Part shown: piece by piece, positions 43,559 through 59,119 of the stretch
Position numbering within the stretch: the first letter of the stretch is position 1
How the letters are laid out: each line of letters begins with the position of its first letter
DNA from: Roseofilum acuticapitatum BLCC-M154
Lineage (GTDB): Bacteria; Cyanobacteriota; Cyanobacteriia; Cyanobacteriales; Desertifilaceae
Length of the DNA: 64,000 nt
Assembly: GCF_030068475.1 (NCBI RefSeq)
Contig: NZ_JAQOSP010000063.1
Location: 62,001 to 126,000 of the forward strand
Reading direction: 5' to 3'
Translations under genes and position numbers: made by a program
Notes under the pieces: generated by a model
The model's database searches: none
The model's input: the letters and a program-made list of their open reading frames with translations, nothing else
Told to the model about the DNA's origin: nothing

Positions 43559-43808
43559 ATGCGAAATCGCGCTGGTTCAGCGTTGGAGACAGATATAACC
43601 TAGCGTGTTCTCTTCACTTTGACCAGATCGGGTCATAGGGGTGGGTTTATCTAAAAATTTAAGGGGAAGACCCAGAATTGAGTAAACTTGCCCTTCTTGG
43701 GAGTTGTGAAATTTTAAGTTATGTTATTAGTATGTTATTAAATATTCATATTTCTCCAATTTTTGTGTTCGGCTCCGATCATCTTCATTTGATACTTTAA
43801 CCCTCTTG

Positions 43809-44204
43809 GTGAAGCAGTTTAGTGATAAAACGTTGGATCATCCTTTCCGTGACCCCCTCTTGAGTAAGCGTTTTTGGGGGGTAGTCGTCCTTATGCTGGT
43901 ATCGGTGGGTCTGATTTGCTTTTCGATTCAGTATCTCGATCAGCCCTCTCCCTACTTAAAGGAGGTTTTGACCTTGAAAGGCGATCGCGTTCAAGGCCAT
44001 GCTATTTTCCAAATGAATTGTGCCGGATGTCATGGTTGGGAAGCTAAGGGCAAAGTCGGGCCAAGCTTGCAAGGAGTATCAGAACATAAGTCTAAGCGCC
44101 GGTTAGTTGAGCAAGTGATCAGTGGCAAAACCCCACCTATGCCCCAGTTTCAGCCCAGTCCCCAAGTGATGGCGGACTTGTTAAGTTACTTAGAGTCGCT
44201 GTAG
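43809..44204 (+). CDS. cytM: Cytochrome cM-like membrane-anchored cytochrome c
   Basis: 131 residues. One uncleaved N-terminal TM anchor (FWGVVVLMLVSVGLICFSI) is followed by a single class-I cytochrome c domain with heme motif CAGCH (in IFQMNCAGCHGWEAKGKVGP) and the axial Met in GKTPPMPQFQPSPQ. Length, anchor and the GHAIFQMNCAGCHGW pattern match cyanobacterial cytochrome cM, a low-abundance protein linked to control of photosynthesis and respiration. GTG 43809 is taken as start (TTG 43806 directly precedes it). No strong ribosome site is seen, in line with low expression. Confidence 0.8.
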   Translation: MKQFSDKTLDHPFRDPLLSKRFWGVVVLMLVSVGLICFSIQYLDQPSPYLKEVLTLKGDRVQGHAIFQMNCAGCHGWEAKGKVGPSLQGVSEHKSKRRLVEQVISGKTPPMPQFQPSPQVMADLLSYLESL

Positions 44205-44249
44205 CAAATAAGTAGAATGTAAAGACTCGATTAGGTTTAGGGGTCATGC

Positions 44250-44384
44250 TAACATTAAATTCTCTGAAGGTGTCAGGAGACGCAAGTAAGACTACTATCG
44301 CCTGCGGCGAGGCTGGGCGGTAGCATTAGTCAGTGAAGCGTCAAGAATCACTGCTCCTTTAGGACGGTGAGTATGTCAACATCT
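44250..44384 (+). mobile_element. IS200/IS605-like right-end relic, omega-RNA-like, no tnpB
   Basis: A stem CTATCGCC/GGCGGTAG (44295-44302 with 44316-44323), extended by ACTA/TAGT, is followed ~17 nt later by the hairpin TCACTGCTCC/GGACGGTGA (44348-44370) and then GTATGTCAAC. That layout resembles the 3' end of cyanobacterial tnpB genes plus the right-end hairpin of IS200/IS605 elements. One frame reads like a short tnpB tail (VSEASRITAPLG) but holds an upstream stop. No transposase gene remains. Confidence 0.5.
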
Positions 44385-44392
44385 CCCCATCC

Positions 44393-45526
44393 TCACACAG
44401 ATTGTTGTAATTCCAACTCTAGGGGCCGATCGCCCTTAATCTCTAAACCTTTAAAATCTTGTTTAATGCTGCCAAACCCCTCTTCTGGAGGCCAAAAGAC
44501 CCAACGACTGCCGACGGGGAGCTGATTGAGGCGATCGCTATTTTGAGTCAGTAAAATTAAAGGTACATTGGGTAAATTCCGCGCAGGTTCCCCAAATGTA
44601 GTTCCCGCCAAGGCTTCTAAGACCACTTGATAACCTTGAATCAGTCCAGTATAAGCCGTCCAGAGTTTCACATTCATTTGCCGACGGGAGGCATGGAAAT
44701 AGAGAGAAGCAGCCGCAATGACCGCTTGTTCAAAAGTTGCGGGATGCCAAGCCAGTTCCGTATCGAGGGCAATCAACACATCATCACCGCCCGCCATAAT
44801 TTCTAATTCTCGTACCCTTAAGTCTCCATAGCGGGCACTGGTGCGCCAGTGAATCAGTCTTAAGGGGTCTCCCACCCGATAAGGGCGCAAGGAGCGAGTT
44901 AAGCCTTCTGTAGAATTTTGGATGCCCTGATGGTCGCGCTTAAATTTAGGGCTTTGGTCTTGACCAAGGTCGTCAATTAGGGGACAACTCCGTAGGGGTA
45001 GCACTTGGGGATAAACGATCGCCGTGGCAGGCGCTTCCCGGCGACGGCGACACCAAAATAAGCCTAGAGGGGCGGCTGTCCTGAGCTGTAGGGTACTCCA
45101 ACGATAAATTCCTCTTTTTTGGGTCGGTTGGTCATAAATCCATTTATAGCTGCTGTAAGGGGGGATATGGGCGATCGCCGTGGTTTGGGGAGGACTGAGG
45201 ACAAAGGGCAGCAGATCCTGAACTTGAAGCAGGGTTTTGGGTTGGTTCGTACAATTTTCGATGTCCAGTTCAAGGGTGAGATGATCGCCAGCGCTGATGG
45301 GGCGAATGCGATGGCGATGAATCTTGAGACCCCGTAGCGATCGCACGGGTAAAATAGCTGCCATAAACAGCAGTGCGGCGAGAATGCCACTAATGACATA
45401 GAGCCATCCGACCATGGTATTGGTGGCTGCTCCAAAGAAAAAGACCATCAGAGCGCCTAGCAACCATCCCGCATAAGCGGGGTTAACCCATTTTCTCTCT
45501 AACCAATCGGCGATCGCTTGTATCAC
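44393..45526 (-). CDS. DUF58 family protein
   Basis: 377 residues: two N-terminal TM helices (~17-60), a beta-rich domain, then the DUF58 signature RPYRVGDPLRLIHWRTSARYGDLRVRELE at ~215-245 (quoted as a position) followed by a vWA-like C-terminal domain. DUF58 proteins usually sit next to MoxR ATPases, but no MoxR gene is adjacent here, so function remains open. The start at 45526 begins MIQAIADWLERKW. Followed on the same strand by the IS-type relic. Confidence 0.88.
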   Translation of the reverse strand: MIQAIADWLERKWVNPAYAGWLLGALMVFFFGAATNTMVGWLYVISGILAALLFMAAILPVRSLRGLKIHRHRIRPISAGDHLTLELDIENCTNQPKTLLQVQDLLPFVLSPPQTTAIAHIPPYSSYKWIYDQPTQKRGIYRWSTLQLRTAAPLGLFWCRRRREAPATAIVYPQVLPLRSCPLIDDLGQDQSPKFKRDHQGIQNSTEGLTRSLRPYRVGDPLRLIHWRTSARYGDLRVRELEIMAGGDDVLIALDTELAWHPATFEQAVIAAASLYFHASRRQMNVKLWTAYTGLIQGYQVVLEALAGTTFGEPARNLPNVPLILLTQNSDRLNQLPVGSRWVFWPPEEGFGSIKQDFKGLEIKGDRPLELELQQSV

Positions 45527-45584
45527 GCTCTTACTCCATATATCATTTCCCCTTCATCTTTTATAGCGCTTCTCGATCGACCCA

Positions 45585-46580
45585 TTAAAATTCAACCAAG
45601 ACTTCGGCAATTCTGCGATTGCGTCGCACGGTGAGCAGCATTGAACGGGGACGGGTTTCTAGGAAACCGATGAGATCGTTGACTCCTCGCAACCGACGGT
45701 GATTAATGGCTAAGAGGCGATCTCCCGGTCGAAAACCGATATCTGCGGCTAAAGAACCCCGTTCAACTTCTAATACGGTTAAGTCTTGATCTACGGTTAC
45801 GCCTAAACGGGGAGGATCGGAAAAGCGATCGCGGTTATTCTGATTATCTTGAGGAAATGTAGGATCGCGTCGAGCCACTGAATCATTGGGAACGCCAGGA
45901 TCGCGCTGATTGCCATTAGCCACAATAAACTCTTGGGCAATTAAAGCATTAGTGGCAAAACCAATGCCGCTATTGGTTCCATTCCGGCTTAAAATGGCTT
46001 TATTGACTCCAATCAGTTCGCCACGGGAGTTGAGTAAGGGGCCGCCGGAGTTCCCAGGATTTAGGGCTGCATCGGTTTGTAGGTCTCCATTTTCCGGATC
46101 AATGCGGCTGAGAATACCGGTGGTAATGGTTCCCGACAGACCAAAGGGACTACCAATAGCATAGACTTGTTGACCGATTTGTACCCCTTGGCGATCGGCG
46201 ATCGGAATGGTAGGTAAACTCTCATTCGTTTGTAGACGCACTAAGGCTAAATCATTGCGGCGATCCACAGCAATCACATAACCTGGATAACGATTGCCTT
46301 GGGCGGTTCTCACCTCTACCTGTCCCCGTCTGGCTTCAGAAACCACATGCTCATTAGTTAAGACTAAACCATCAGAGCGTACAATACTCCCTGAACCTGA
46401 GCCTCGTCCAGCTTTAATCGTAACTACCGCAGGACTGGCTTGGCGATAGACTTGAATCCGCGTTTGTTCTTCCCCACTAAATTGCGCGAGTCGTCCAATT
46501 TCCGGTACACTGAGGGCTGGTGGCGCGATGAATAGTCCCACTGCTAGGGTAGACAGGAATAAGGTTTTTGGTTGGATCAT
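45585..46580 (-). CDS. HtrA/Deg-like serine protease with PDZ domain
   Basis: 331 residues: Sec signal peptide (TLFLSTLAVGLFIAPPALS), trypsin-like domain with the triad His (LTNEHVVSEA), Asp (RRNDLALVRL) and Ser (NPGNSGGPLLNS), then one PDZ domain (~245-325, ADIGFRPGDRLLAINHR). It is short of the usual HtrA LA loop; exported quality control is the expected role. Gene order: 58 bp upstream of the DUF58 gene on the same strand, so they may be co-transcribed. Confidence 0.92.
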   Translation of the reverse strand: MIQPKTLFLSTLAVGLFIAPPALSVPEIGRLAQFSGEEQTRIQVYRQASPAVVTIKAGRGSGSGSIVRSDGLVLTNEHVVSEARRGQVEVRTAQGNRYPGYVIAVDRRNDLALVRLQTNESLPTIPIADRQGVQIGQQVYAIGSPFGLSGTITTGILSRIDPENGDLQTDAALNPGNSGGPLLNSRGELIGVNKAILSRNGTNSGIGFATNALIAQEFIVANGNQRDPGVPNDSVARRDPTFPQDNQNNRDRFSDPPRLGVTVDQDLTVLEVERGSLAADIGFRPGDRLLAINHRRLRGVNDLIGFLETRPRSMLLTVRRNRRIAEVLVEF

Positions 46581-46811
46581 GATTCTTTACCCAGGGTTAG
46601 CAATCCTTCTTTAATGGATGACACAGGATGGTGCTGATAGTTTCCTGATTGTAGAATAGGCACGGGTCATCAATTACTTCAGAGATTTAACCAACCTATA
46701 ACCCAGAATGCCCATCTGGAGCGAGAGATGGATTGGATAGCTTCCGAACATCAAGATTGGGCGATCCGAGTTTAACCTTAGTTTTGTAGTTTCGTTTAAT
46801 TTTATAGATTC

Positions 46812-47765
46812 ATGCTTGATTCTTTATCTTCATCCTTCGTTGGTGAAATGCCCGTTTTTCTTGACCCATTTCAATTGTATACCCTACCCTTGGGAGATTG
46901 GGTGACCGATTTTGTCAATTTCTTGGTCGATCAGTTTCGCCCTTTTTTTCAACTGATTAGAATTCCCTTTGCCTTTGTTCTCAGCACAATTGAAGCGGGT
47001 TTACTGGTTATTCCCCCCACCTTGTTCTTAATTCTCTTAGGGTTGCTGGTGTGGCAATTTTGTAGCGCTGCCATTGCTATCTACAGTCTGGTGGCTATGG
47101 TGGCTATTGGTTTACTGGGAACCTGGGAACCGGCAATGACTACCTTATCTCTGGTCATTTGTGCCGTGACTTTCTGTATGATTATCGGTCTGCCGATTGG
47201 CATTTTAGCTGCCAGAAACGATCGCTTTGACTCTATTTTGCGACCGCTTCTGGATGCGATGCAAACTTTACCTTCGTTTGTTTATTTGGTTCCGGTTGTG
47301 ATGCTCTTTGGGATTGGGGAAGTGCCGGGAGTGATTGTTACTTTGATTTTTGCGGTTCCGCCCTTGATTCGGTTAACGAATTTGGGGATTCGTCAGGTGT
47401 CTAAGGAAGTGGTGGAAGCGGCGATCGCCTTTGGCTCCACTCCCAACCAAGTCCTTTGGGAAGCCCAAATTCCCCTCGCTTTACCGACAATCCTCGCGGG
47501 CGTGAATCAATCTATACTCTTAGCCCTATCCATGGTGGTTGTCGCATCCATGATTTCTGTCGAAGGTCTCGGTCAAATGGTCTTACGGGGCATTGGCCGC
47601 CTGGATGTTGGATTAGCAACGGTTGGCGGGGTCAGTATTGTCTTAGTGGCGATCTTATTAGACCGGATCACCCAGGCTTTAGGGAAACCGAAAAAGGTTT
47701 CCTGGAAAAAGCGCGGCCCCATAGGATTTGTATTTTATTTTACCCAGAAACAAGCACTCCAATAA
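46812..47765 (+). CDS. ProW-like ABC transporter permease (glycine betaine/proline type), orphan
   Basis: 317 residues, 6-7 TM helices. The EAA loop region reads VVEAAIAFGSTPNQVLWEAQIPLALPTILAGVNQSIL (residues ~195-232), with the QTLPSFVYLVPVVMLFGIG segment that is typical of ProW/OpuAB. It should form the membrane pore for import of a compatible solute. The usual ATPase and binding-protein genes are not adjacent; the next gene is on the opposite strand, with 6 bp between the stops. The partner subunits must be encoded elsewhere or be lost. Confidence 0.85.
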   Translation: MLDSLSSSFVGEMPVFLDPFQLYTLPLGDWVTDFVNFLVDQFRPFFQLIRIPFAFVLSTIEAGLLVIPPTLFLILLGLLVWQFCSAAIAIYSLVAMVAIGLLGTWEPAMTTLSLVICAVTFCMIIGLPIGILAARNDRFDSILRPLLDAMQTLPSFVYLVPVVMLFGIGEVPGVIVTLIFAVPPLIRLTNLGIRQVSKEVVEAAIAFGSTPNQVLWEAQIPLALPTILAGVNQSILLALSMVVVASMISVEGLGQMVLRGIGRLDVGLATVGGVSIVLVAILLDRITQALGKPKKVSWKKRGPIGFVFYFTQKQALQ

Positions 47766-47771
47766 ATGGCT

Positions 47772-49268
47772 TTAATCTGCCATTAAAACCTTGGTGGTGG
47801 ATTGCCCTAACTTATTCAACCGAGACATTAAGGTGCTATTCAAGGCTGCGAAAATGGCCCATTGAGCTAAGAGGGAAAAGGCAAAGGGCAAGATTAAGGT
47901 TGGGGCCGTTTGTTCGAGGGCAAACCAACTGCCTCCGAATACGGAGAACATCCACCAACTGGCTGAGGTTTGGGGGTTGATTTCTAAGGTGGCGACAATG
48001 ATTAGGGGTAAGACTAATACTGTAATGACTAAAGATCCGGCGATCGCCGTCCGGTTTTTAGAGCGGTTGAGTAAACTCAGTTGGATGATGACTCCATAAA
48101 TGAGTATCAGATTAGCTGAGAGGATCAAAGAGAAAATTGCCCCCATTTTTTCGGCGTTGGGTAAGCGAGCGATCGCCCAAAAACTCCAAATAGCTGTAAC
48201 GATCAGCACTTGCAGGGCGATCGCCCCCACCGCAGGACTCTTTTCACCCCAGAGCAAATCCCGAATTAACCTTCGATTTTCCCTAGACTGTTGATGGCGA
48301 TATCTCGCCCAATCTAGACAATTTTGCCGCTCTGGAGTCACCATAAAACTGGTGAACAAAATGACTATCAAATTAAACACGCTCAGGGAAAACAGCATGT
48401 GCAATCCTTGCTCAGGGTAATCTAAGCCTATCGGCAGCATAAACCCCAATAACCACACCTGAAGCAGTGCCACCATCCCATAGCTTTGAGCTTTGCTCAT
48501 TCTTGTACCTAGGGGATTTTGGTAAACTCGATTGACAATAGAGGCAATCCCATAAGCGATCGCCACACCCGTGGCGATCGTTAATCCATAACCCACCCAA
48601 GCCGAAGATAGAGGAAACGTAAACCAATACTCCTTAATATATTCTGCACTACCCAAAACATACTGATCCAAGCACCAATTCACCCCCTGCAAATAATAAG
48701 GCATCACCATTAAACTGATGACACTAGAGCTACCTGCACGAGCTTGTTCCCCCATCTTATCGTTACCCATGAGGCCAACCAAGAGGGCAAAGGCGAAACA
48801 CACCCCACATCCCAATCCCCACAGGCTATAGAGAGCTAAAAGGCTCACAAAAGAATACTCCTGTAGAGCAGCGAAAGCATGGAGAGGTAAACACAGCACG
48901 GTAAAGACGTAAACAATAATAGGAACGCCCAACACCTTACCCCATAAGACTTTTTCACTCTCTTGAGGACTGAAGCGAATAAAATTCAGAGTCCCTTTGC
49001 TCACCTCTTTGGCCATATCACTGGTCAATAAAAAGACTCCACATACCCATAAAGTCAAAGGGATAATCCAACCCAGGGAATCAAAAATAACTGACCAGGC
49101 AAACTCCTGACCGATATAATCAGATTCTGCTGCTATCAGGATCAGAAGACCTTGCAAAAGCACGGCTGCTCCCAACGCTAAAAATAGGGGAGCGGGTTTG
49201 AGCCTCCCTTTTAGCTCCCTTAATAATTGGGGATTCCAGTCCCCAATTCGATTAAATACTGAATTCAT
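47772..49268 (-). CDS. ABC-2-like integral membrane protein
   Basis: 498 residues with about 12 TM helices in two halves. Near the N-terminus WNPQLLRELKGRLKPAPLFLAL and LLTSDMAKEVSKGTLNFIRFSPQ resemble ABC-2-type permeases (the amphipathic coupling segment before a TM bundle). No ATPase is adjacent. ATG 49268 is preferred over 49334: the first 22 residues of the longer form lack homology-like character. The function is unknown beyond membrane transport or export. Confidence 0.72.
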   Translation of the reverse strand: MNSVFNRIGDWNPQLLRELKGRLKPAPLFLALGAAVLLQGLLILIAAESDYIGQEFAWSVIFDSLGWIIPLTLWVCGVFLLTSDMAKEVSKGTLNFIRFSPQESEKVLWGKVLGVPIIVYVFTVLCLPLHAFAALQEYSFVSLLALYSLWGLGCGVCFAFALLVGLMGNDKMGEQARAGSSSVISLMVMPYYLQGVNWCLDQYVLGSAEYIKEYWFTFPLSSAWVGYGLTIATGVAIAYGIASIVNRVYQNPLGTRMSKAQSYGMVALLQVWLLGFMLPIGLDYPEQGLHMLFSLSVFNLIVILFTSFMVTPERQNCLDWARYRHQQSRENRRLIRDLLWGEKSPAVGAIALQVLIVTAIWSFWAIARLPNAEKMGAIFSLILSANLILIYGVIIQLSLLNRSKNRTAIAGSLVITVLVLPLIIVATLEINPQTSASWWMFSVFGGSWFALEQTAPTLILPFAFSLLAQWAIFAALNSTLMSRLNKLGQSTTKVLMAD

Positions 49269-49386
49269 AGTTGAAGACGCTCCTAAACGGTCTCTAGGAT
49301 TAATATCTTTGAACCAGTTGAGATATGCTCTCAAGACTACAGGCTACGAAAATGACCATAGCTATACTAGAGCAATGATAACATTC

Positions 49387-50364
49387 TCAATCTTCTCCCA
49401 CCTGATAGCCAAACTGGGACAAACGAGCGCGAGATTGTCGCCATTTCGGTCTAACTTTAACAAATAATTCCAGATAAACTTGGCCTAAAATCAATTTTTG
49501 CATCTGTTCCCGTGCTGCTGTGCCAATGCTTTTGAGCATCGATCCCTTTTTGCCAATCAGAATCGCTTTTTGAGAGTCCCGTTCTACATTAATGGCCGCA
49601 AAAACGCGAGTAATTTTCTCCGTTTCTTCCACCCGCTCAATTTCGACTGCCACGGAATGGGGCACTTCTTGGCGAGTCAGCAGTAAAATTTGTTCCCGGA
49701 TTAATTCGCCCATAATAAAGCGTTCTGGCTGGTCAGTGACCAAATCGGGGGGATAATAGTAGGGGCCAGGGTCGAGATTATCCGCCAGTAGGGTTTGTAG
49801 GGAGTCTAATCCCTCACCGGTGAGGGCAGAAAATTTCAGGGTAGGCCACTGGTGAGCTTGGGCCAGTTGGGCATAGCTTCGATCGATCGCCTCAAAGTCC
49901 TCCGGTTGTTGATCTGCCTTATTGAGTCCGAGAATAATGGGTAGCTTAACGGAGGACAGTAAATCAACAATATAGCGATCGCCCCCTCCCGCAGCCACCC
50001 CACTATCGACCACAAATAACACCACATCTACCGATTTAATGGCCAACTTTGCATTTTCCACCAACACCTTCCCCAACTCATGGTGGGGTTTATGAATTCC
50101 AGGAGTATCTACAAAAATAAATTGAGCCGATGAAGTCGTCAGAATTCCCCGCAAGCGGTTGCGTGTGGTTTGAGCAACCGGTGAAGTAATCGCAATTTTT
50201 TGTCCAACCAACTCATTCATAATGGTGGACTTACCCACATTGGGACGGCCAATAATGCCCACAAACCCAGACTTAAAGCCAGGAGGGGGTTCTGGAATTA
50301 TATTAAAGGATAAAGCAGAAGAATCGTAGAGAGCTTCAGATTGGGGATCAAGAGAATCAGTCAT
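49387..50364 (-). CDS. era: GTPase Era
   Basis: Ribosome-assembly GTPase that binds 16S rRNA. G1 GIIGRPNVGKST, G2/G3 TRNRLRGI and VDTPGIHKPHHELG, G4 LGLNKADQ and G5 FSALTGEG are followed by the C-terminal KH domain (ILIGKKGSMLKSIGTAAREQMQKL in parts, and VKVRPKWRQSRARLSQFGY). 325 residues from ATG 50364; the alternative TTG 50391 would add nine residues. Divergent from the pfkA gene with a 144-bp gap. Confidence 0.95.
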   Translation of the reverse strand: MTDSLDPQSEALYDSSALSFNIIPEPPPGFKSGFVGIIGRPNVGKSTIMNELVGQKIAITSPVAQTTRNRLRGILTTSSAQFIFVDTPGIHKPHHELGKVLVENAKLAIKSVDVVLFVVDSGVAAGGGDRYIVDLLSSVKLPIILGLNKADQQPEDFEAIDRSYAQLAQAHQWPTLKFSALTGEGLDSLQTLLADNLDPGPYYYPPDLVTDQPERFIMGELIREQILLLTRQEVPHSVAVEIERVEETEKITRVFAAINVERDSQKAILIGKKGSMLKSIGTAAREQMQKLILGQVYLELFVKVRPKWRQSRARLSQFGYQVGED

Positions 50365-50508
50365 GGAGGATCGTAAGTCAGGAATTAACAAAGATTAAGT
50401 CAAGTTGACGTTATGGAACTTTCAGAGAATTTAAGTTTAATTTACTCCTGTAAGGGCTAAGTGGCCCTTTGTCTTCATTCACCTTCAAAGCTACGGGAGG
50501 ACAAGGTT

Positions 50509-51585
50509 ATGGGAAAACGCATTGGTATTTTAACCAGTGGCGGGGACTGTGCAGGTCTCAATGCTGCGATTCGAGCTGTCGTCTATCATGCCACAGGAAC
50601 CTATGGTTATGAAGTCTTTGGCATTTATCAAGCCACATTGGGGTTATTAGAACGTCCTCCAAAGGCGATCGAATTAAATCGCACTAACATTCGTGGCTTA
50701 CTGCTCACTGGTGGAACCATACTAGGAACCACCAACAAGGGTGACCCCTTTGCTTATCCGATGCCCGATGGTACATCAATCGATCGCTCAGAAGAAATGA
50801 TCGAAGGATACCACCAATTGGGTCTCGATGCCCTACTGGTGATCGGTGGCGATGGATCTTTAGCCATTCTGCGAAAACTGGCTAAACAAGGCAATATGAA
50901 CATTATTGGTATCCCCAAAACCATTGATAATGATATTGGCATTACTGAACGCTCTATTGGTTTTCAAACAGCCGTCAATATTGCAACAGAAGCCCTAGAC
51001 CGACTCCAGTTTACCGCAGCCAGTCATAATCGGGTCTTAATTCTGGAAGTGATGGGTCGGGATGCCGGTCATATTGCCATTAGTGCCGGAATTGCTGGCG
51101 GTGCGGATGTGATCTTAATTCCCGAAATTCCCTACAACATCAATAAGGTTTGCGACCATATTGTTAAGCGTCGAGATATCGGTAAAAATTATTCTCTGGT
51201 GATTATCTCCGAAGCGGTAAAAACCATTGATGGCGGAGCGATCACTAATGTGGATGTTCTGGGAGAGCGTCGCTATGGAGGTATTGGTCATTATATTGCC
51301 GATAGCATTACCTCTAAAATTGGTGCAGAAACCAGGGTGACGGTGTTAGGTCATACCCAACGAGGAGGTATTCCCGCCGCTACAGACCGCCTGGTGGCTT
51401 CTACCTTTGGTGTGGCAGCCGTTGATTTAGTGGCTGAGGATAAATATGATTACATGGTGACTTGGCAAAATCGCCAGGTGGTGAGTGTACCCATTGAAGA
51501 TGCGATTAAACATTACCAAACGGTTGATGCTGAAGGCACATTAGTCAAAACCGCCAGAGGTTTGGGCATTTGTTTGGGAGATTAA
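50509..51585 (+). CDS. pfkA: 6-phosphofructokinase
   Basis: Phosphorylates fructose 6-phosphate in glycolysis. MGKRIGILTSGGDCAGLNAAI begins the chain (first 20 shown in part), GGDGSLAIL holds the phosphoryl-donor Asp-Gly and PKTIDNDI the catalytic segment. The Gly after GGD indicates ATP use, while Lys in PKT (Gly in E. coli) marks the mixed Gly/Lys clade, usually still ATP-dependent. 358 residues. ATG 50509 is preferred because GGGAGGA lies eight bases before it; the longer GTG form at 50461 adds 16 unlikely residues. Confidence 0.95.
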   Translation: MGKRIGILTSGGDCAGLNAAIRAVVYHATGTYGYEVFGIYQATLGLLERPPKAIELNRTNIRGLLLTGGTILGTTNKGDPFAYPMPDGTSIDRSEEMIEGYHQLGLDALLVIGGDGSLAILRKLAKQGNMNIIGIPKTIDNDIGITERSIGFQTAVNIATEALDRLQFTAASHNRVLILEVMGRDAGHIAISAGIAGGADVILIPEIPYNINKVCDHIVKRRDIGKNYSLVIISEAVKTIDGGAITNVDVLGERRYGGIGHYIADSITSKIGAETRVTVLGHTQRGGIPAATDRLVASTFGVAAVDLVAEDKYDYMVTWQNRQVVSVPIEDAIKHYQTVDAEGTLVKTARGLGICLGD

Positions 51586-51594
51586 CAGGCAAAA

Positions 51595-51615
51595 CAAGGG
51601 GCTTGGGGCCCCTTG
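51595..51615. terminator. Hairpin between convergent pfkA and fabG
   Basis: CAAGGGGC and GCCCCTTG form an 8-bp stem around TTGGG. On the minus strand it is followed by TTTTG, fitting fabG termination; the plus side lacks a T-run. Confidence 0.6.
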
Positions 51616-51644
51616 CTTGATCGATCCGGAAGACTATCAAGGGA

Positions 51645-52406
<762 letters not shown>

Positions 52407-52479
52407 CTATTTCTTAAGTTAGGCTTAGGGCATTTTGCCTTAGAATGGGGTGAATTGCCTCACTTTTGGAGAATTTAAC

Positions 52480-52797
52480 ATGGCCGTTAAAAAGCAATTC
52501 AAAAGTTTTTCTGACCTCCTCGCCCAATCTGATGTCCCTGTGTTGGTCGATTTCTATGCCACTTGGTGCGGCCCTTGCCAAATGATGGTTCCCATTTTGG
52601 AGCAAGTAAGCGCTCAGATGGGTAAAGCCATCCAAGTGGTGAAGATTGACACAGATAAATACCCCCAACTCGCTTCTGAGTACCAGGTAGAAGCCTTGCC
52701 CACCCTGATTCTGTTTAAGCAGGGCAAACCGGTGGATAAAATTGAAGGCGTGATTAAGGCCGAACCCCTGATCGCACGCCTCCAGGCCTTGATTTAA
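52480..52797 (+). CDS. Thioredoxin, y-type
   Basis: 105 residues. The WCGPC active site (VDFYATWCGPCQMMVP), cis-Pro (ALPTLILFKQG) and end IEGVIKAEPLIARLQAL are clear. The FSSF-like start KKQFKSFSDLLAQSDVPVLV and KIDTDKYPQLASEYQ favour the cyanobacterial y-type thioredoxin (TrxQ), which reduces peroxiredoxins rather than Calvin-cycle enzymes. ATG 52480 has no long upstream extension. Transcribed alone, with the tRNA-Gly gene 104 bp downstream. Confidence 0.9.
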   Translation: MAVKKQFKSFSDLLAQSDVPVLVDFYATWCGPCQMMVPILEQVSAQMGKAIQVVKIDTDKYPQLASEYQVEALPTLILFKQGKPVDKIEGVIKAEPLIARLQALI

Positions 52798-52901
52798 GGG
52801 CAGTACAAAAATTTTGCCCAAGGTCTAGCTTTTTTCTAAAAGTTATGTTAGATTGGTGAGAGTGGGTAATAAACGGTTGTGTCCGTCGATTTGCCCAGCT
52901 T

Positions 52902-52972
52902 GCGGGTATAGTTTAGTGGTAAAACCATAGCCTTCCAAGCTATTGATGGGGGTTCGATTCCCCCTACCCGCT
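52902..52972 (+). tRNA. trnG-UCC: tRNA-Gly (anticodon TCC)
   Basis: A cloverleaf of 71 nt can be drawn: acceptor GCGGGTA/TACCCGC, D-arm GTTTAGTGGTAAAAC, anticodon stem ATAGC/GCTAT with loop CTTCCAA (anticodon TCC at 52934-52936), T-arm GGGGG-TTCGATT-CCCCC. No CCA is encoded. No intron is present. Confidence 0.95.
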
Positions 52973-53003
52973 TCTTAAGTATCCTGGGTGTATAGAATTT
53001 TTA

Positions 53004-53037
53004 CCCCCATCAATAGCATGGGAACCGGCTCCCATGC
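53004..53037. repeat. Inverted partial copy of tRNA-Gly followed by a hairpin
   Basis: CCCCCATCAATAGC (53004-53017) is the exact reverse complement of tRNA positions 52939-52952 (anticodon stem 3' side and variable region). It is followed by the perfect hairpin GCATGGGA/TCCCATGC (53016-53037). Together with the tRNA gene it makes a 14-bp inverted repeat across about 50 bp. Confidence 0.65.
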
Positions 53038-53159
53038 CTAAAATCTGCCTAAATTCACCATAGCACTCCCCATTGAGGGGGGCAAGTAATAGGCCATGGG
53101 GACAGTAGCTCAACTCTGTCGCTGTTGGTCAGTTTGATAGAAACGGTTTTGATATCTCG

Positions 53160-53285
53160 CTTTCATTACTTGCGCTAGAATTGGTCTGTCAATGCTATTG
53201 GGTTAGCTCCATTGGAGGTGCGCCAATAGCAGTTCTAATGCAGTACATTAAAGAACAAGAAAAGCCGTCCTTCTAGGATGGGGTT
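53160..53285 (+). mobile_element. Second IS200/IS605-like right-end relic, omega-RNA-like, no tnpB
   Basis: This occupies much of the 372-bp gap between tRNA-Gly and dapL. The nested stems TGCTATTGG/CCAATAGCA (53193-53201 with 53223-53231) and CTCC/GGAG are followed by a spacer and the hairpin CCGTCC-TTCTA-GGATGG (53265-53281). One frame reads like a degraded tnpB tail (VNAIGLAPLEVRQ) with stop codons. No intact transposase gene is present. Confidence 0.5.
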
Positions 53286-53309
53286 TTAGACCCATTCTTC
53301 TGATAATTC

Positions 53310-53343
53310 TTCTGTTGGGTCACTGGGTGACCCAACTCAGAAG
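53310..53343. terminator. Hairpin at the dapL 3' end
   Basis: GTTGGGTCAC/GTGACCCAAC is a perfect 10-bp stem with a 3-nt loop, extended by TTCTG/CAGAA after a bulge. It starts 2 bp after the dapL stop codon on the minus strand. There is no T-tract. Confidence 0.6.
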
Positions 53344-53344
53344 C

Positions 53345-54580
53345 TTAAACCTTGAAATTGGCGATAATCCGACTCATGGCTTCTTCGACATTTTCCCGAC
53401 TGTTGAAGGCGGAGATGCGGAAGTAGCCTTCTCCCGCAGCGCCGAATCCCGATCCGGGAGTGCCAACGACGTAGCATAAGTTGAGTAATTTGTCAAAGAA
53501 ATCCCAACTGGACAATCCTTGGGGCGTTTTCACCCAAATATAGGGGGCATGAACCCCACCATAAACGGTTAATCCAGCCTCGGAGAGCTTTTGACGGATA
53601 ATTTGGGCATTTTCCAGGTAAAACTGGATTAAGTCTTTAATTTGGCTTTGTCCTTCTGGGGAATAAACCGCTTCTGCGCCACGCTGGACAATGTAGGAAA
53701 CGCCGTTAAATTTGGTAGATTGGCGACGATTCCAGAGTTGATGGAGGGTGACTTCTGCTCCATCGGCAGTTTTGGATTTGAGGCTCTTGGGAACGACGGT
53801 ATAGGCACATCGAGTGCCGGTAAATCCTGCATTTTTGGAGAAGGAACGAAACTCGATCGCACATTCCCTTGCGCCTTCAATTTCATAGATAGAATGGGGC
53901 AGTTCCGGGTCGGTAATAAAAGCTTCATAGGCTGCATCAAAGAGAATGACGGAACCATTGGCTTTAGCGTAGTCTACCCAAGCTTTGAGGTCAGCCTTCG
54001 ATGCAGTTGCCCCTGTGGGATTATTGGGGAAACAGAGATAAATGAGATCTACGGGTTGATCCGGTATTTTAGCGGTAAAGTTATTCTCGGCTGTAATCGG
54101 CAGATAGAATAAGCCTCCATATTCGCCTTTATCATTCACTGGCCCCGTATGGCCGGCCATGACATTAGTATCGACATACACGGGATAAACGGGATCGGTG
54201 ACGGCAATGGTGTTATCCTTACCAAAAATATCGAGAATATTGCCGGTGTCGCATTTCCCGCCATCAGAAACAAAAATTTCCGAGGCATCAATGTCGCATC
54301 CCCGTGCTTGGAAATCTTGGCTGGCAATCTTTTCCCGTAACCAACCATACCCCTGTTCTGGGCCATATCCCTTAAATGTAGCGCGATCGCCCATTTCTTC
54401 CACCGCCTTAATCATCGCCGTGCGGCAAGCTTCCGGTAGAGGTTCCGTCACATCCCCAATTCCGAGCTTAATAATGGGAGCATCCGGATTAGACTCGGCA
54501 AACACCTTCACCCGTCGGGCAATCTCCGGGAACAAATAGCCCGCTTTCAATTTGAGATAATTTTCGTTAATCGTGACCAT
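53345..54580 (-). CDS. dapL: LL-diaminopimelate aminotransferase
   Basis: PLP enzyme that makes LL-diaminopimelate straight from tetrahydrodipicolinate (lysine and peptidoglycan precursor), the usual route in cyanobacteria and plants. 411 residues with the start [48 protein letters not shown] (substrate Asn) and the PLP-binding Lys in [16 protein letters not shown]. The first ten codons and the leader are duplicated at 55385-55472, where they form a false start in front of xisH. TATGAT near 54630 may be its -10 element. Confidence 0.96.
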
Positions 54581-54638
54581 TGCGGCTCTTCTTAAGACTC
54601 TTTCTATCAGCTTAGGCGTAAACCGGTATCATAGGAAG
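54551..54638. repeat. 88-bp direct repeat, dapL-proximal copy
   Basis: This copy spans the first ten codons of dapL and 58 bp upstream. It matches the copy at 55385-55472 at 86 of 88 positions with no gaps. The differences are at 54588 and 54594, both in the leader. The copies are 834 bp apart and enclose xisI-xisH. Confidence 0.95.
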
Positions 54639-54643
54639 ACCAT

Positions 54644-54964
54644 TTATCCAGCCAGAACCAGGGGTTGTTCTGGCAAGAAAGCCAGGACAATTTGCTCAGA
54701 AGGCACACCTAGATCGAGCAAATCTTGGGTAATACCCTGTTCTAGCCCATCATATTCGACATAAATACGCTCATTTTCCAGGGTAATGTAGATCAAGTTA
54801 CCCCGCACTCTACAGCCCTGACTCCAGCCCGTTTGCATCAGGGCATAGCGGTCTTGAGTTTCATCAAACACTGTATCTAGGCGAATTTGCCCGTGAGAAG
54901 GGGTTAAGCGCCCATACTGACTAATTACCTGCTTGACTTTATCTCTCAGAGTCGCGGTATCCAT
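54644..54964 (-). CDS. xisI: XisI-like protein
   Basis: 106 residues. Recognisable XisI features: the start MDTATLRDKVKQVISQYG, VFDETQDRYALMQTGWSQ, RVRGNLIYITLENERIYVEYDG (quoted in part) and the LLDLGVPSEQIVLAFLPEQ C-terminal region. XisI was named for control of excision of the Nostoc fdxN element and normally occurs with XisH; homologues are common in cyanobacteria without that element, where their function is unknown. The start overlaps xisH by 19 bp. The stop is 5 bp from the dapL-side 88-bp repeat. Confidence 0.93.
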   Translation of the reverse strand: MDTATLRDKVKQVISQYGRLTPSHGQIRLDTVFDETQDRYALMQTGWSQGCRVRGNLIYITLENERIYVEYDGLEQGITQDLLDLGVPSEQIVLAFLPEQPLVLAG

Positions 54965-55371
54965 TGTTTCACCTCTACAGTTTCTACATCCACAACCAAT
55001 AGATTGAGCGGCAGGTCTCGGATAACCAATTGGCCAATCGGCTCTTGGAATAGCTCATTGTACACCTGGGTACTCACCGCTAGATAGAGCTGTCTCTCTG
55101 GATCAACCTGTGCTAAAAGTAGTCGATACAGCGTATATTGGCCCATAGCTTGTTCAAGTTCAGCAATGGGGGATTTGCCTCGTAGTTCCTTAATCTCGAT
55201 GGCAATGCGGTACTTATCACGCTCGGCTCCGATAAACTGTCCGGTTATTCCTAAGTCTACAAACAAAAATCGCTCCCCATAGGAGATCACATAGGGATCA
55301 TCGGTAATTATCCACCCCTCTTTTTGTAGAGCAGCTTTAACCTGAGCGTGAATGGCATCTCTAGAGGGCAT
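54946..55371 (-). CDS. xisH: XisH-like protein, restriction-endonuclease-like fold
   Basis: 141 residues of the XisH family: DAIHAQVKAALQKEGWIITDDPY, a DLGITGQFIGAERD segment and IAIEIKEL. The Asp followed by Glu-x-Lys is the PD-(D/E)xK nuclease layout, so it could cleave or bind nucleic acid; catalysis is not shown. It pairs with xisI (19-bp overlap). The ATG lies inside a 17-codon chimeric frame made from the first ten dapL codons. The 13 bp between the repeat and ATG hold no good ribosome site, so translation probably depends on the overlapping frame. Confidence 0.93.
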   Translation of the reverse strand: MPSRDAIHAQVKAALQKEGWIITDDPYVISYGERFLFVDLGITGQFIGAERDKYRIAIEIKELRGKSPIAELEQAMGQYTLYRLLLAQVDPERQLYLAVSTQVYNELFQEPIGQLVIRDLPLNLLVVDVETVEVKQWIPRL

Positions 55372-55414
55372 TACCTGAAATAACTTTGAGATAATTTTCG
55401 TTAATCGTGACCAT
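55361..55414 (-). CDS. Chimeric 17-codon leader frame overlapping xisH
   Basis: Begins with the duplicated dapL ATG and reads [17 protein letters not shown] before TAG at 55361-55363. The first ten codons equal dapL, and the last seven come from inserted DNA. It overlaps the xisH start by 11 bp in another frame. The dapL leader supplies its start signals, so ribosomes finishing here could restart at xisH. Frame and stop are read from sequence; translation is an inference. Confidence 0.55.
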   Translation of the reverse strand: MVTINENYLKVISGNAL

Positions 55415-55472
55415 TGCGGCTTTTCTTGAGACTCTTTCTATCAGCTTAGGCGTAAACCGGTATCATAGGAAG
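55385..55472. repeat. 88-bp direct repeat, xisH-proximal copy
   Basis: The second copy of the dapL 5' region (partner at 54551-54638, 86/88 identical). It begins exactly at the end of dapL codon 10 and ends 58 bp before the start codon equivalent. Confidence 0.95.
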
Positions 55473-55510
55473 TGCTGTAATCAGAGTGTTGGGTTAAATT
55501 ACCAGAGCCG

Positions 55511-56026
55511 ATGAATTATCTAGTTGCCGTATTGCGCGATCGCATTCAAGCCGAAGGAGTCTACTGTGCCTTAGAAAAAGGAGGCTTACCCACAAACCAA
55601 GTGAACATCTTAGGCAAAGGTTACAAAAGTGCCGATGAGTTTGGCCTAATCAACCCTAACCAAGCTGCTCAAAAACAAGCCCAACTGATGGCGACTTGGT
55701 TAGTCCCCTTTGGTTTTTTTGGTGGCGTTACCTTTAGTGTTATTTCTGGCCTCAATACTTTTGCCTGGGCTGGCGAAATCGGCAATCATATTGTGGGCGG
55801 ACTTTTAGGTGCTGCTTCCGGTGGCTTAGGAGCCTTATTTGTGGGCGGTGGTGTAGGTTTAATTAGTGGTAGTGGCGATGCACTGCCCTATCGCAACCGC
55901 TTACAAGAAGGCAAGTATTTAATTGTGGTACAAGGTTCTAGTAGTCTGATTGAACAAGCGACGATTATTATTCGTCCCTTTGAACCAGAAAGTTTACAAG
56001 GCTATACTGCGCCTAATCCTTCCTAA
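55511..56026 (+). CDS. Glycine-rich membrane protein, function unknown
   Basis: 171 residues. An N-terminal alpha/beta module (NYLVAVLRDRIQAEGVYCALE) resembles the general-stress-protein 17M/DUF1269 type; then two hydrophobic, Gly-rich segments (LVPFGFFGGVTFSVISGL and GGLLGAASGGLGALFVGGG) probably form a membrane hairpin; a further small strand-rich end follows. It starts 38 bp from the xisH-side repeat and reads away from it. The GNAT gene follows with only 3 bp between stop and start, so the two form an operon. Confidence 0.75.
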   Translation: MNYLVAVLRDRIQAEGVYCALEKGGLPTNQVNILGKGYKSADEFGLINPNQAAQKQAQLMATWLVPFGFFGGVTFSVISGLNTFAWAGEIGNHIVGGLLGAASGGLGALFVGGGVGLISGSGDALPYRNRLQEGKYLIVVQGSSSLIEQATIIIRPFEPESLQGYTAPNPS

Positions 56027-56029
56027 AAT

Positions 56030-56479
56030 ATGAGAATGCTGAAAGTTATTGCAGCCCATGAAGCACAAGAGCTAATCGCAGAACTGGATATCTATCTCCA
56101 GGGGTTTTATCCTGATGAAAGTAATCATTTAGATTCTGTGGATGTTCTCTCTCAAGAGAATGTCCACATGATTGGAGCTTTTGTGGAGGGTGAATTAGCG
56201 GGAATTGGTGCAGTTAAAGTATTAGATGATTATGGCGAGATGAAGCGCTTGTATGTTAAGCCGGAGTTTAGAGGTCAAGGGTTAGCTCGGATGCTCATGG
56301 GTGAGTTGGAAAAGCATCTGATTAACTTGGGAATGGGTGAGGCAAAGTTAGAAACGGGTATTTATCAAACTGAAGCGATTGCCCTATATCGTAAATTGGG
56401 TTATGTGAATTGTCTTCCTTTTGGAGATTATGGCCCAGATCCTTACAGTGTGTATATGGTTAAAAGAATATATCGCTAG
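56030..56479 (+). CDS. GNAT-family N-acetyltransferase
   Basis: 149 residues. The acetyl-CoA-binding motif A is in MKRLYVKPEFRGQGLARMLM (R/Q-x-x-G-x-G/A), preceded by GAFVEGELAGIGAVKV and followed by AIALYRKLGYVNCLPFG, a classic GNAT pattern. The substrate is not predictable. Co-transcribed with the preceding membrane-protein gene (3-bp spacer). Confidence 0.9.
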   Translation: MRMLKVIAAHEAQELIAELDIYLQGFYPDESNHLDSVDVLSQENVHMIGAFVEGELAGIGAVKVLDDYGEMKRLYVKPEFRGQGLARMLMGELEKHLINLGMGEAKLETGIYQTEAIALYRKLGYVNCLPFGDYGPDPYSVYMVKRIYR

Positions 56480-56543
56480 TCTAAATGATAGTCATTCCAA
56501 TTGATTTCTGTACATTGAGATGATTGCATCTAGAGTTATATTC

Positions 56544-56705
56544 TGTAGGGGTTTTAAGACGCAGATGAATTTAGAGTTGAAGGAGTGCGTAGCGCAGCGT
56601 GTTCGCAGGACAAACATCTTGCTCGCTGCCTTTCTGTAGCGAGCGAGACGCTCGCACTCCTTACAGCCGTTAAATACCCGATCGTAGTTCAATGAAACCC
56701 CTACA
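56544..56705. repeat. Composite palindromic repeat element
   Basis: TGTAGGGGTTT (56544-56554) and AAACCCCTACA (56695-56705) are perfect 11-bp inverted ends around ~140 bp. Inside lies GGAGTGCG...CGCACTCC material (56582-56661) related to the repeat at 59904-60004. No coding sequence is credible here. This and the hairpin at 56735 account for most of the 321-bp gap between the GNAT and AraC genes. Confidence 0.7.
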
Positions 56706-56734
56706 AGATTAGCACTCCGAGAGGGACTTCTGCT

Positions 56735-56758
56735 CCCCTTCTCCTGCGGGAGAAGGGG
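56735..56758. repeat. Short CCCCTTCTCC palindrome
   Basis: CCCCTTCTCC-TGCG-GGAGAAGGGG is a perfect 10-bp hairpin with a 4-nt loop, located 43 bp before the 3' end of the AraC-type gene on the minus strand. It may stop that transcript. Confidence 0.7.
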
Positions 56759-56800
56759 CTGGGGGATGAGGGGCAGCCATTGCATAATTCATTATAAATC

Positions 56801-57655
56801 CTAACTATTCCGATAGGCTTTGGGAGTCATCCCGGTGACTTGTCGGAACTGTTTGCTGAGATGACTATGGCTGCTGAAGCCACAATCTAAGGCAATTTCG
56901 ATAATGGATCGATCGCCGGATTTGAGGATCTGTTTGGCTCGTTCAATCCGTTGCTGAATTACATATTGATGGGGGGATAGGCCGATGGATTGCTTGAATA
57001 AACGGCTAAAATGGAATGGACTCATGTTGAGTAATTGAGCTAGATTTTTCAGTTGAATGGGTTGATCGAGATGGGCATCAATGTAATCTAAAATTCGTTG
57101 CAGTTGGCGAGGGGGTAACCCTCCCTCATAAACGGGTAATTGGGGTTGAATAGTGGCATGATGGCGAAGAAAATTGATGGCTAAAACATGGGTCAGGGAA
57201 TCTAGATACAGGGGGCTGGTTAATTCGGGTTGTTGGGATTCAGCAAGCAGCATTTTGGCGATCGCCTCTAGGGGAGAATGGCGTACCTGAAACTGCGGTA
57301 TAATTTGCAGGCGATCGCTATCTTGACTCAGAGTTTCCCTCGCCACATCGCGCAAAAAGCGATCGCTCACCTGAAGGCACAAGCAATCTTCCTCCCCTTC
57401 CCATCGCACAAACAAAGGGGTATTCGCAGGCGTAATTAACAGATCTCCGGCACGATACAGCCCCCGGTAAGTCTTGCCATCTTGGGACTGCATATACTCA
57501 ATGGGACGGGGCGAAAGAGAGATAAATAAGCTATGCTCATCCCGGAAATGACAACTCCCTTCCCCAGTAGGGTTCTGGAGTCGGGTAACTTGAACCCTCT
57601 CCTGATGCTCAGACCAGTCATGATTTTCAACAGGTGATAGAGCATGATTTTGCAT
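56801..57655 (-). CDS. AraC-family transcriptional regulator
   Basis: 284 residues: an N-terminal cupin-like ligand domain (~20-150) and a C-terminal pair of helix-turn-helix motifs (LKNLAQLLNMSPFHFSRLFKQ and IIEIALDCGFSSHSHLSKQF with the conserved FRQVTGMTPKAYR end). Divergent from the MHS-type transporter gene with a 138-bp shared upstream region, which is the expected arrangement for a local regulator of that transporter. The ligand is unknown. Confidence 0.92.
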   Translation of the reverse strand: MQNHALSPVENHDWSEHQERVQVTRLQNPTGEGSCHFRDEHSLFISLSPRPIEYMQSQDGKTYRGLYRAGDLLITPANTPLFVRWEGEEDCLCLQVSDRFLRDVARETLSQDSDRLQIIPQFQVRHSPLEAIAKMLLAESQQPELTSPLYLDSLTHVLAINFLRHHATIQPQLPVYEGGLPPRQLQRILDYIDAHLDQPIQLKNLAQLLNMSPFHFSRLFKQSIGLSPHQYVIQQRIERAKQILKSGDRSIIEIALDCGFSSHSHLSKQFRQVTGMTPKAYRNS

Positions 57656-57793
57656 CTTGACGAACCCAGTAAGCGTTGTGTCGATATTATAGTCTACTCG
57701 ACTGAATTGGCTTCCCGGTTAATCCCCTGCTTCCCTGTACCGACTTTACCCTTTAGCTTTGAGTTAAAATAGGGATCAAGTCGTTAACCCCCT

Positions 57794-59119
57794 ATGCGAG
57801 TGACCCCCCTATCCCCCATTGAAGCCGCCCAAGATCGGCAAGCTCATCCAACAATTTCTAGCGTAAATAATACCAAAACCGTGATTCTGGCCGGTGTGGT
57901 AGGTAATGCAATTGAATGGTATGACTTTGCCCTTTATGGCTATTTAGCCCCCATTATTTCCCTACTCTTTTTCCCCCATAGTAATGAACTGGTCTCTCTG
58001 CTAGAAACCTATGGTGTATTTGCAGCCGGGTTTATTATGCGACCTATTGGGGCAGGAGTTTTCGGTTATATCGGCGATCGCGTCAGTCGCCGTACTGAAC
58101 TCTTTATTTCCGTCATCTTAATGGCAATTCCCACATTCTGCTTAGGTCTCTTACCCACCTATAACCAGATCGGCATTGCCGCCCCAATCATTTTAATTTT
58201 ACTCAGATTAGTACAAGGATTATCCGTCGGCGGAGAATTCACTGGATCGATCACCTATTTAGCTGAAACTGCACCCCAAACTCGGCGCGGGTTCACCACC
58301 AGCTTTGTCAGTGTTGGGGCTACCACCGGTTTCTTGTTAGGCTTAGGGATAGTGACGCTCCTCACCCATCTCCTCTCTGACACCACCCTATATACCTGGG
58401 GGTGGCGCTTACCCTTCTTATTTGGCGGTATCTTAGGATTAATGGGACTCTACATTCGGACCAATCTCCCTGATTCACAAATCTTCGAGGAACACCAGGA
58501 AGAAAGGCAAGTTCCCCTACTCAATGCCCTGAGAAAATCCCTATTACCCATGTTGCAAGCCATGTGTTATGCCGGAGGCTATAATTCGGTTTATTACATT
58601 ATCATCATCTATCTTCCGACCTACTTGGATCGGTTTACGGATATGCCCCGTAGTAGTGTTTTAGCCGTCAATGTAGTTGCCCTGAGTATCATGATCGCCC
58701 TGATTCCGCTCTTGGGTTGGGTATCCGATAGTGCCCTACGGCGTAAATCCTTATTATTGTTGGCAATCCTGGGTATGGGATTATTGAGTGTTCCTGGATT
58801 TTGGCTGTTGTTGCAACCCAATCATTATGAAGTAGGGTTGGCTCAGATGTTATTGGCGATCGCCATTTCCCCCTTATTGGCTACCTCTCCAGCGATGATG
58901 GTAGAACTCTTTCCCACAGAGACTCGCCTGAGTGCCTATTCTATTTCGTATAATCTAGGCGCAAGTATTATGGGGGGAACTTCTCTATTGGTGTGTACCT
59001 GGCTGATTAATATCAGTGGGAATATTTATGCCCCTGCCCTTTATTTAATGATCAGTGCTGCGATCGCTGCGATCGCCTTGGCATTTATGAGCGATCGCAG
59101 CCGCGAACCCTTACTCTAA
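57794..59119 (+). CDS. MFS transporter, metabolite:H+ symporter (ProP/KgtP-like)
   Basis: 441 residues, 12 TM helices. GNAIEWYDFALYGYLAPIIS and GAGVFGYIGDRVSRRTELF (loop 2-3 motif of the MFS) are typical of the MHS subfamily (ProP, KgtP, ShiA). Substrates of that group are organic acids or betaine-like solutes; the specific one here is unknown. The divergent AraC gene probably controls it. Confidence 0.88.
   Translation: MRVTPLSPIEAAQDRQAHPTISSVNNTKTVILAGVVGNAIEWYDFALYGYLAPIISLLFFPHSNELVSLLETYGVFAAGFIMRPIGAGVFGYIGDRVSRRTELFISVILMAIPTFCLGLLPTYNQIGIAAPIILILLRLVQGLSVGGEFTGSITYLAETAPQTRRGFTTSFVSVGATTGFLLGLGIVTLLTHLLSDTTLYTWGWRLPFLFGGILGLMGLYIRTNLPDSQIFEEHQEERQVPLLNALRKSLLPMLQAMCYAGGYNSVYYIIIIYLPTYLDRFTDMPRSSVLAVNVVALSIMIALIPLLGWVSDSALRRKSLLLLAILGMGLLSVPGFWLLLQPNHYEVGLAQMLLAIAISPLLATSPAMMVELFPTETRLSAYSISYNLGASIMGGTSLLVCTWLINISGNIYAPALYLMISAAIAAIALAFMSDRSREPLL

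Follow-up and report, generated by a model that had tools for sequence, protein, structure and literature searches.

A probable left-end remnant of an IS605-type insertion sequence and a neighbouring attL-like strip with an inverted tRNA-Gly copy in Roseofilum acuticapitatum BLCC-M154

What are the hairpins at positions 53160-53285, between a tRNA-Gly gene and dapL, in the 64,000-nucleotide stretch of the Roseofilum acuticapitatum BLCC-M154 genome analysed here (the window)? The first-pass annotation took them for the right-end RNA of an IS200/IS605-like element, assigned them to a family distinct from that of a similar relic at 44250, and considered the persistence of structured ends without a transposase to be notable. 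We read the segment 53107-53302 on the minus strand as what is left of an IS605-type insertion sequence, a dead fragment with its left end, and we regard this as nearly certain. Below, G000 is the genome of the window and G001 is its sister genome; the features are collected in Table 1.

Table 1. Positions of the features discussed (window coordinates unless a locus is named)
Feature	Position	Strand	Basis or remark
Contig C63 of genome G000			contains the whole window
First relic: right end (omega-RNA side), same IS605-type family	44277-44379	+	opposite strand to the 53160 relic
tRNA-Gly (TCC)	52902-52972	+	ARAGORN; Rfam RF00005
attL-side remnant of a tRNA-integrating element, distinct from the IS relic	52973-53102	+	dispersed family next to tRNA genes
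Inverted tRNA-Gly copy, 19 nt (18/19 match)	53003-53021	-	3' side of the anticodon arm and variable region
Direct repeats CCTAAAATCTG/CCTAAA	53037-53053	+	candidate arm-type recombinase sites
tnpB remnant, first 18 codons MKARYQNRFYQTDQQRQS, then stop	53110-53166	-	homologous to the starts of the 373-aa tnpB in L059/L060
Divergent tnpA/tnpB intergenic remnant	53167-53189	strand-neutral	sequence comparison
tnpA remnant, last 28 codons and stop, QCYWVSSIGGAPIAVLMQYIKEQEKPSF*	53190-53276	+	aligned to tnpA copies
Internal tnpA deletion junction, about 346 bp absent relative to two full copies	53193-53194		common to G001:C51
Nested stems of the first-pass annotation	53193-53231	+	within tnpA codons, without covariation
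Subterminal hairpin of the IS605 left end, CCGTCC/GGATGG	53265-53281	strand-neutral	hairpin kept across left-end copies
Left-end terminus CAGAAG...	from 53302	-	boundary putative; TTAT (53306-53303), the target tetranucleotide, stands before it
dapL	53345-54580	-	open frame; gene name from the first-pass annotation
Recombinase-family loci	L233 12788-14371 (G004:C75); L240; L244; L286 1408-2802; L289 17343-18629		

The stems named in the annotation are present where it placed them: TGCTATTGG (53193-53201) is complementary to CCAATAGCA (53223-53231), and CTCC/GGAG is nested within. The sequence 53155-53290 folds at -41.1 kcal/mol (z -2.3), and 5 of 200 shuffles are equally stable. A perfect 9-bp stem with a loop of 3-25 nt is mildly unusual in frequency: 21 of the 507 tiles (126 nt each) cut from the window contain one, as do 17 of 2000 shuffles of the flagged stretch. 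The tRNA was the sole match to pass the threshold in the Rfam search; CbSR12 (E 1.2, 15.4 bits versus a gathering score of 195) was discarded.

The genome search with 53150-53310 gave 14 matches, self included. On contig C17 of G000 the halves of the query stand about 350 bp apart with tnpA between them (an open frame of 138 aa, Pfam Y1_Tnp), and a complete element is found at G001:C55, consisting of a left end, a tnpA of 133 aa, a divergent tnpB of 373 aa and a right end. Its tnpA matches Y1_Tnp (PF01797) at 126.7 bits and belongs to the Y1 (HUH) TnpA proteins; the 373-aa TnpB has the RuvC/Zn domains of an accessory TnpB (PF01385 OrfB_IS605, 101.8 bits; PF07282 Cas12f1-like_TNB, 68.6; PF12323 HTH_OrfB_IS605, 59.5), and the subterminal left-end hairpin of the IS605 group is seen in 14 distinct copies. 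The full element in G001, together with the gene stubs in the window, bears out the view that an IS200/IS605-family relic without a transposase lies between tRNA-Gly and dapL. We take the nearest system to be the IS605 group of that family (tnpA plus tnpB, e.g., ISDra2 and IS608). The parent element resembles it in the Y1 TnpA, the divergent tnpB, the left-end hairpin and the insertion at TTAT without duplication; the window copy differs in that it retains only the left end, 18 codons of tnpB and 28 codons of tnpA.

The window copy is no active element: tnpA, tnpB and the pair of ends are incomplete, only the left end and the gene stubs are present, and no right end was found beside it. The boundary of its left end is putative, being placed from the sister copy. 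The first codon or two of the tnpA remnant may be junction sequence; searched alone against PF01797, the 28 codons align to positions 101-121 with 14.2 bits, below the cut-off. The distance between the same two motifs is 350 nt in two tnpA copies, 349 nt in one and 4 nt in the window. The copy at G001:C51 has the deletion junction of the window, yet it keeps an intact 373-aa tnpB and a right end; the two are identical at 178 of 193 nt across the junction (92%), without gaps. The empty site for the G001:C51 copy was found in G003:C125, where the two flanks adjoin and only 4 nt separate their matches; the insertion is 3' of TTAT and has no target duplication at this one site examined. As the window copy and G001:C51 have unlike flanks, the deletion derivative probably moved at least once after the loss of tnpA, judging from the sequences of these two copies. 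Derivatives with tnpB only are presumably what is called IS1341-like; G001:C51, with an intact tnpB and a tnpA stub, and G000:C116, with tnpB near a left end and about nine tnpA codons (by eye), resemble them, whereas the window copy lacks tnpB too.

The history is most likely as follows. The parent element carried tnpA and tnpB back to back. An internal deletion removed most of tnpA at the first step and spared the promoter region, the left-end hairpin and the 28 terminal codons; the derivative retained an intact tnpB and right end, as in G001:C51, and reached the dapL flank, presumably mobilised in trans by the TnpA of another copy. Both the right end and the remainder of tnpB after codon 18 were lost later. 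Of little weight in itself, the relic shows a stepwise decay, tnpA first and tnpB later, with the deletion derivative at two loci. The outer hairpin is the folded site in single-stranded DNA to which a Y1 transposase binds, and the inner stem is a part of the transposase coding sequence. According to PMC6006769, both ends carry small subterminal hairpins that TnpA(IS200) binds on single-stranded DNA. The window fragment should be immobile, because it has neither an enzyme nor a right end; it is most likely inert, and no present function is indicated for it.

Left ends are common in these genomes (21 rows, the window included, one of them read in a shifted register), and at least two of the copies, L050 and the one in G000:C62, are mini-forms. 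In L050 (G003:C136) the right end is joined, by eye, almost directly to the last tnpA codons and the left end. The existence of such forms, and the same deletion derivative at two loci, would agree with a two-ended non-autonomous miniature element at 53160 that is still mobile in trans; we consider this very improbable, as no right end was found beside this copy and the similarity to the IS605-type element stops near 53107, beyond which a different repeat follows. The persistence of structured ends does not appear notable against so many left ends: with numerous copies, mini-forms among them, structured ends that outlive their genes need no special explanation. The flagged relic is ordinary IS605 left-end scrap.

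The question of a second IS family is decided by the other relic. The window sequence 44277-44381 is 92-93% identical to the right ends of G001:C55 and G001:C51, and in both the match begins within the last tnpB codons. The annotation would have a right-end (omega) RNA remnant of another IS200/IS605 family at 53160, and the order of the hairpins does resemble that at 44250; however, the true right end, just after tnpB, is the 44250 sequence itself, while the flagged end lies beyond the tnpA stop, and the inner stem shows no covariation. Omega RNA belongs 3' of tnpB, at the right end, and the flagged end is on the tnpA side; thus 53160-53285 consists of the left end with coding remnants of tnpA and tnpB, and we give the right-end reading practically no credence. 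The relics at 53160 and 44250 represent opposite ends of one element type, hence their unlike sequences. The absence from relatives of any complete element with such an end was to count against the annotation; G001:C55 is complete. Its proposal of a second, distinct family falls, since this complete element has the 44250 sequence as its right end, and the two relics present one IS family from two ends. They are about 9 kb apart in opposite orientation; a single element split between them was rejected, as the orientation demands an inversion that is unsupported.

The two stems differ in conservation. The outer hairpin is paired in 96.9% of 98 cells from 14 distinct copies, and in at most 58% upon sliding; this count drew on the 21 left-end rows, with L087 and the shifted L048 omitted and with L091 duplicating another row. 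(The omitted L087 also has a perfect outer stem, judged by eye.) The search for compensatory changes that the annotation proposed gave a partial answer here: there is one two-sided change, in addition to GU changes, but the covariation is weak, because shuffles equal the observed value in 139 of 500 cases. For the nested stem the answer is negative. It lies within tnpA codons, and no two-sided change occurs among the 5 copies; of the 65 inner-stem cells 78.5% are paired, which equals the shuffles, and 73.8% still when the stems are slid by +3. The CTCC/GGAG pairing is maintained in 95% of cells in the 5 copies; of the 9 pairs in the long stem, 4 fail to form in 3 or 4 of these copies. A change of TT to GG, present among the five aligned copies in the two deletion copies only, lengthens the inner stem; of the five, the window copy has the longest inner stem and the other deletion copy the second longest. 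This stem belongs to the tnpA coding sequence and is incompletely conserved.

The position of the relic between two 3' ends, and an inner stem that is longest in the window copy, would suit hairpins recruited as a terminator or 3'-UTR structure of dapL or tRNA-Gly. This is improbable in our opinion: a separate palindrome (about 53314-53336) directly adjoins dapL, the relic is absent at each flanking gene in the four relatives read per gene, and the longer stem occurs in 2 copies only. In these relatives the similarity runs out at the end of tRNA-Gly (4 of 4) and no more than a few bases from the dapL stop (also 4 of 4); an empty site for the window copy is not demonstrable in them. Compared with G001-G005, the gene order of 42000-58000 is scrambled every few kb, and adjacent blocks lie on different contigs of the relatives. 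A rearrangement breakpoint was rejected as a sign of IS-driven inversion, since gene order breaks every few kb within the 16 kb searched.

The different repeat at 52973-53102 carries more weight than the relic. It is the attL-side remnant of a family of tRNA-integrating elements whose unannotated recombinase is probably Cre-like. The strip contains a trailer, an inverted partial copy of tRNA-Gly, 11-bp direct repeats and a small hairpin; no recombinase gene and no attR were found between tRNA-Gly and the IS relic, where there is only the attL-side remnant. All of its 12 other aligned copies are at tRNA-gene loci, 11 of them directly after the tRNA, and most contain an inverted partial copy of the adjacent tRNA. 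In the remaining one (L079) an IS605 mini-element stands between the tRNA and the repeat. This mini-element (G000:C62, about 1830-2241) has a right and a left end, with tnpB mostly gone and its tail remaining; it separates tRNA-Trp from the inverted copy of that tRNA, which matches at 22 of 22 nt. A contig of Roseofilum halophilum has the same tRNA-linked repeat.

An inverted copy within 110 nt downstream was found for 31 of 110 distinct tRNA contexts with 0.05 expected from shuffles, where 31/110 is not to be read as a frequency, as many loci were collected via the repeat itself. The controls gave 1 of 110 for direct copies downstream, 0 of 80 for inverted copies upstream and 1 of 80 for direct copies upstream. 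In 32 units, chosen by the flanking 11-bp repeats with a motif written after examples had been seen, the best of 75 tRNAs had the amino acid of the neighbour in 30 cases (permutation mean 4.5; none of 2000 as high), the exceptions being L074 and L075; the neighbouring tRNA itself ranks first in 25 of the 32. Loci with inverted copies are L072, L073, L076-L078, L081-L083, L139, L145, L167, L190, L195, L200, L226 and L228-L231. The copies match the neighbouring tRNA or an isoacceptor, and the 11-bp direct repeats follow them. Local copying is unlikely to be the sole source of the inverted copy (the mirror), since L231, L229 and L080 clearly favour an isoacceptor over the neighbour; L155 favours one only slightly, and L191 (tRNA-Ala) is Val-like by eye. 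For the anticodon arm of the mirror, the 160 stem positions in the 32 units comprise 78 that are the same, 9 changed on one side and paired, 4 changed on both sides and paired, 14 broken and 55 not aligned. Outward from the repeats, the G000 attL ends at Thr-TGT and at Pro-CGG show no difference over the approximately 140 nt available, but their inverted segments differ; Thr-GGT and Phe-GAA are a second such pair, with nearly identical outer sequence.

Within the genus, such strips are ends of integrative elements. At G004:C75, about 6 kb lie between two identical 37-bp copies of the tRNA-Gln 3' end; this element contains pieces of a primase frame (a 932-aa relative at G004:C100 has DUF3854, DUF5906, D5_N and Pox_D5 domains), and a 527-aa protein adjoins its attR (L233). 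Matches to the 527-aa protein, fragments included, number 16 in G004, 18 in G005, 4 in G000 and 4 in G002; there are none in G001 and G003. All of 9 close rows share R297, H424, R427, H450 and Y458, residues that we read by R..HxxR..H..Y, presumably the tyrosine-recombinase motif. The family has no Pfam integrase match, and no Pfam, NCBIfam or PHROG family is assigned to it at E < 0.001 (the best, PHROG 3590 of unknown function, has E 0.0097); no relatives were found in the phages, plasmids or viral contigs searched.

A nearly complete tRNA 3' end of 24 nt lies beside the recombinase start in 18 of 27 rows (16 distinct sites), and the other 9 rows have no clear match in the tRNA library used. 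Eleven kinds are represented: Gln, Gly, Leu-GAG, Leu-TAG, Thr-CGT, Thr-TGT, Pro-GGG, Pro-CGG/TGG, Ala, Arg-CCG and Ser-CGA. The recombinases beside a Thr-TGT and a Pro-CGG/TGG end share 275 of 342 residues. The proteins thus differ too, the attL ends compared may pair with other attR ends, and the target may be chosen by the recombinase protein itself.

The profile search matched 6 of 291 genomes of the class, namely that of the window and 5 of the same order, from three families. In G186, G144 and G233, from two genera of one family, the recombinase gene has a tRNA and an inverted copy of it nearby, and the arrangement thus recurs in another family of the order; no tRNA was found in the DNA examined from G131 and G206. 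The G186 element is about 1.9 kb long, its 465-aa gene is the sole frame of at least 100 aa, and its borders carry a 30-nt repeat with one mismatch; that of G233 is 1.65 kb with an exact repeat core of 27 nt, and no border repeat was found in G144 before the contig end. Direct repeats of the tRNA 3' end at both borders are thus present in G004:C75, G186 and G233. In the G186 recombinase the first H of HxxR is Y. The G233 element is probably dead, because its recombinase frame stops before the catalytic tyrosine. The predicted model of the G186 protein (pLDDT 70.6) has Cre or its variants as its top 23 PDB matches (E 7e-4 to 2e-2), and BFVD gives 7 matches at E up to 0.001, all 4 named ones being integrases. 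A Cre-like, tyrosine-recombinase fold is probable; it is not certain, because the TM values to these PDB entries are below 0.4.

The nearest system for the 52973-53102 family is, we assume, the tRNA-integrating tyrosine-recombinase elements or tycheposons. The likeness includes direct repeats of the tRNA 3' end at both borders, a recombinase gene at one of them and a D5-type primase in some elements. The differences are a piece of the target tRNA carried in inverted orientation just inside attL, the occurrence of one recombinase family at eleven kinds of tRNA, and a recombinase without a Pfam, NCBIfam or PHROG match at E < 0.001. An element family carrying inverted copies of its target tRNA is apparently undescribed; no report of such copies in integrative elements was found in the open-licence literature searched.

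Tyrosine recombinases are normally bound to one site through their protein. It is tempting to propose that the strip is what remains of a novel class of tRNA-targeting mobile elements, in which one recombinase family serves many tRNA 3' ends and the mirror, exchanged against a constant remainder of the element end, is the nucleic-acid determinant of targeting; we put this forward as a possibility that we ourselves doubt. The mirror would fold attL and the tRNA into a long hairpin, or would pair with the target, and one enzyme would be redirected via a changed sequence and not via its protein. If the inverted tRNA copies do direct recombination, they would amount to a swappable targeting device for a tyrosine recombinase. 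As a separate observation, the inverted tRNA copies at L145, L167, L170 and L161 have beside them a conserved protein of about 180 aa (RTTLTLSDPTKTLLQKIGNGSMSDG...), a broken piece of which is present in L081.
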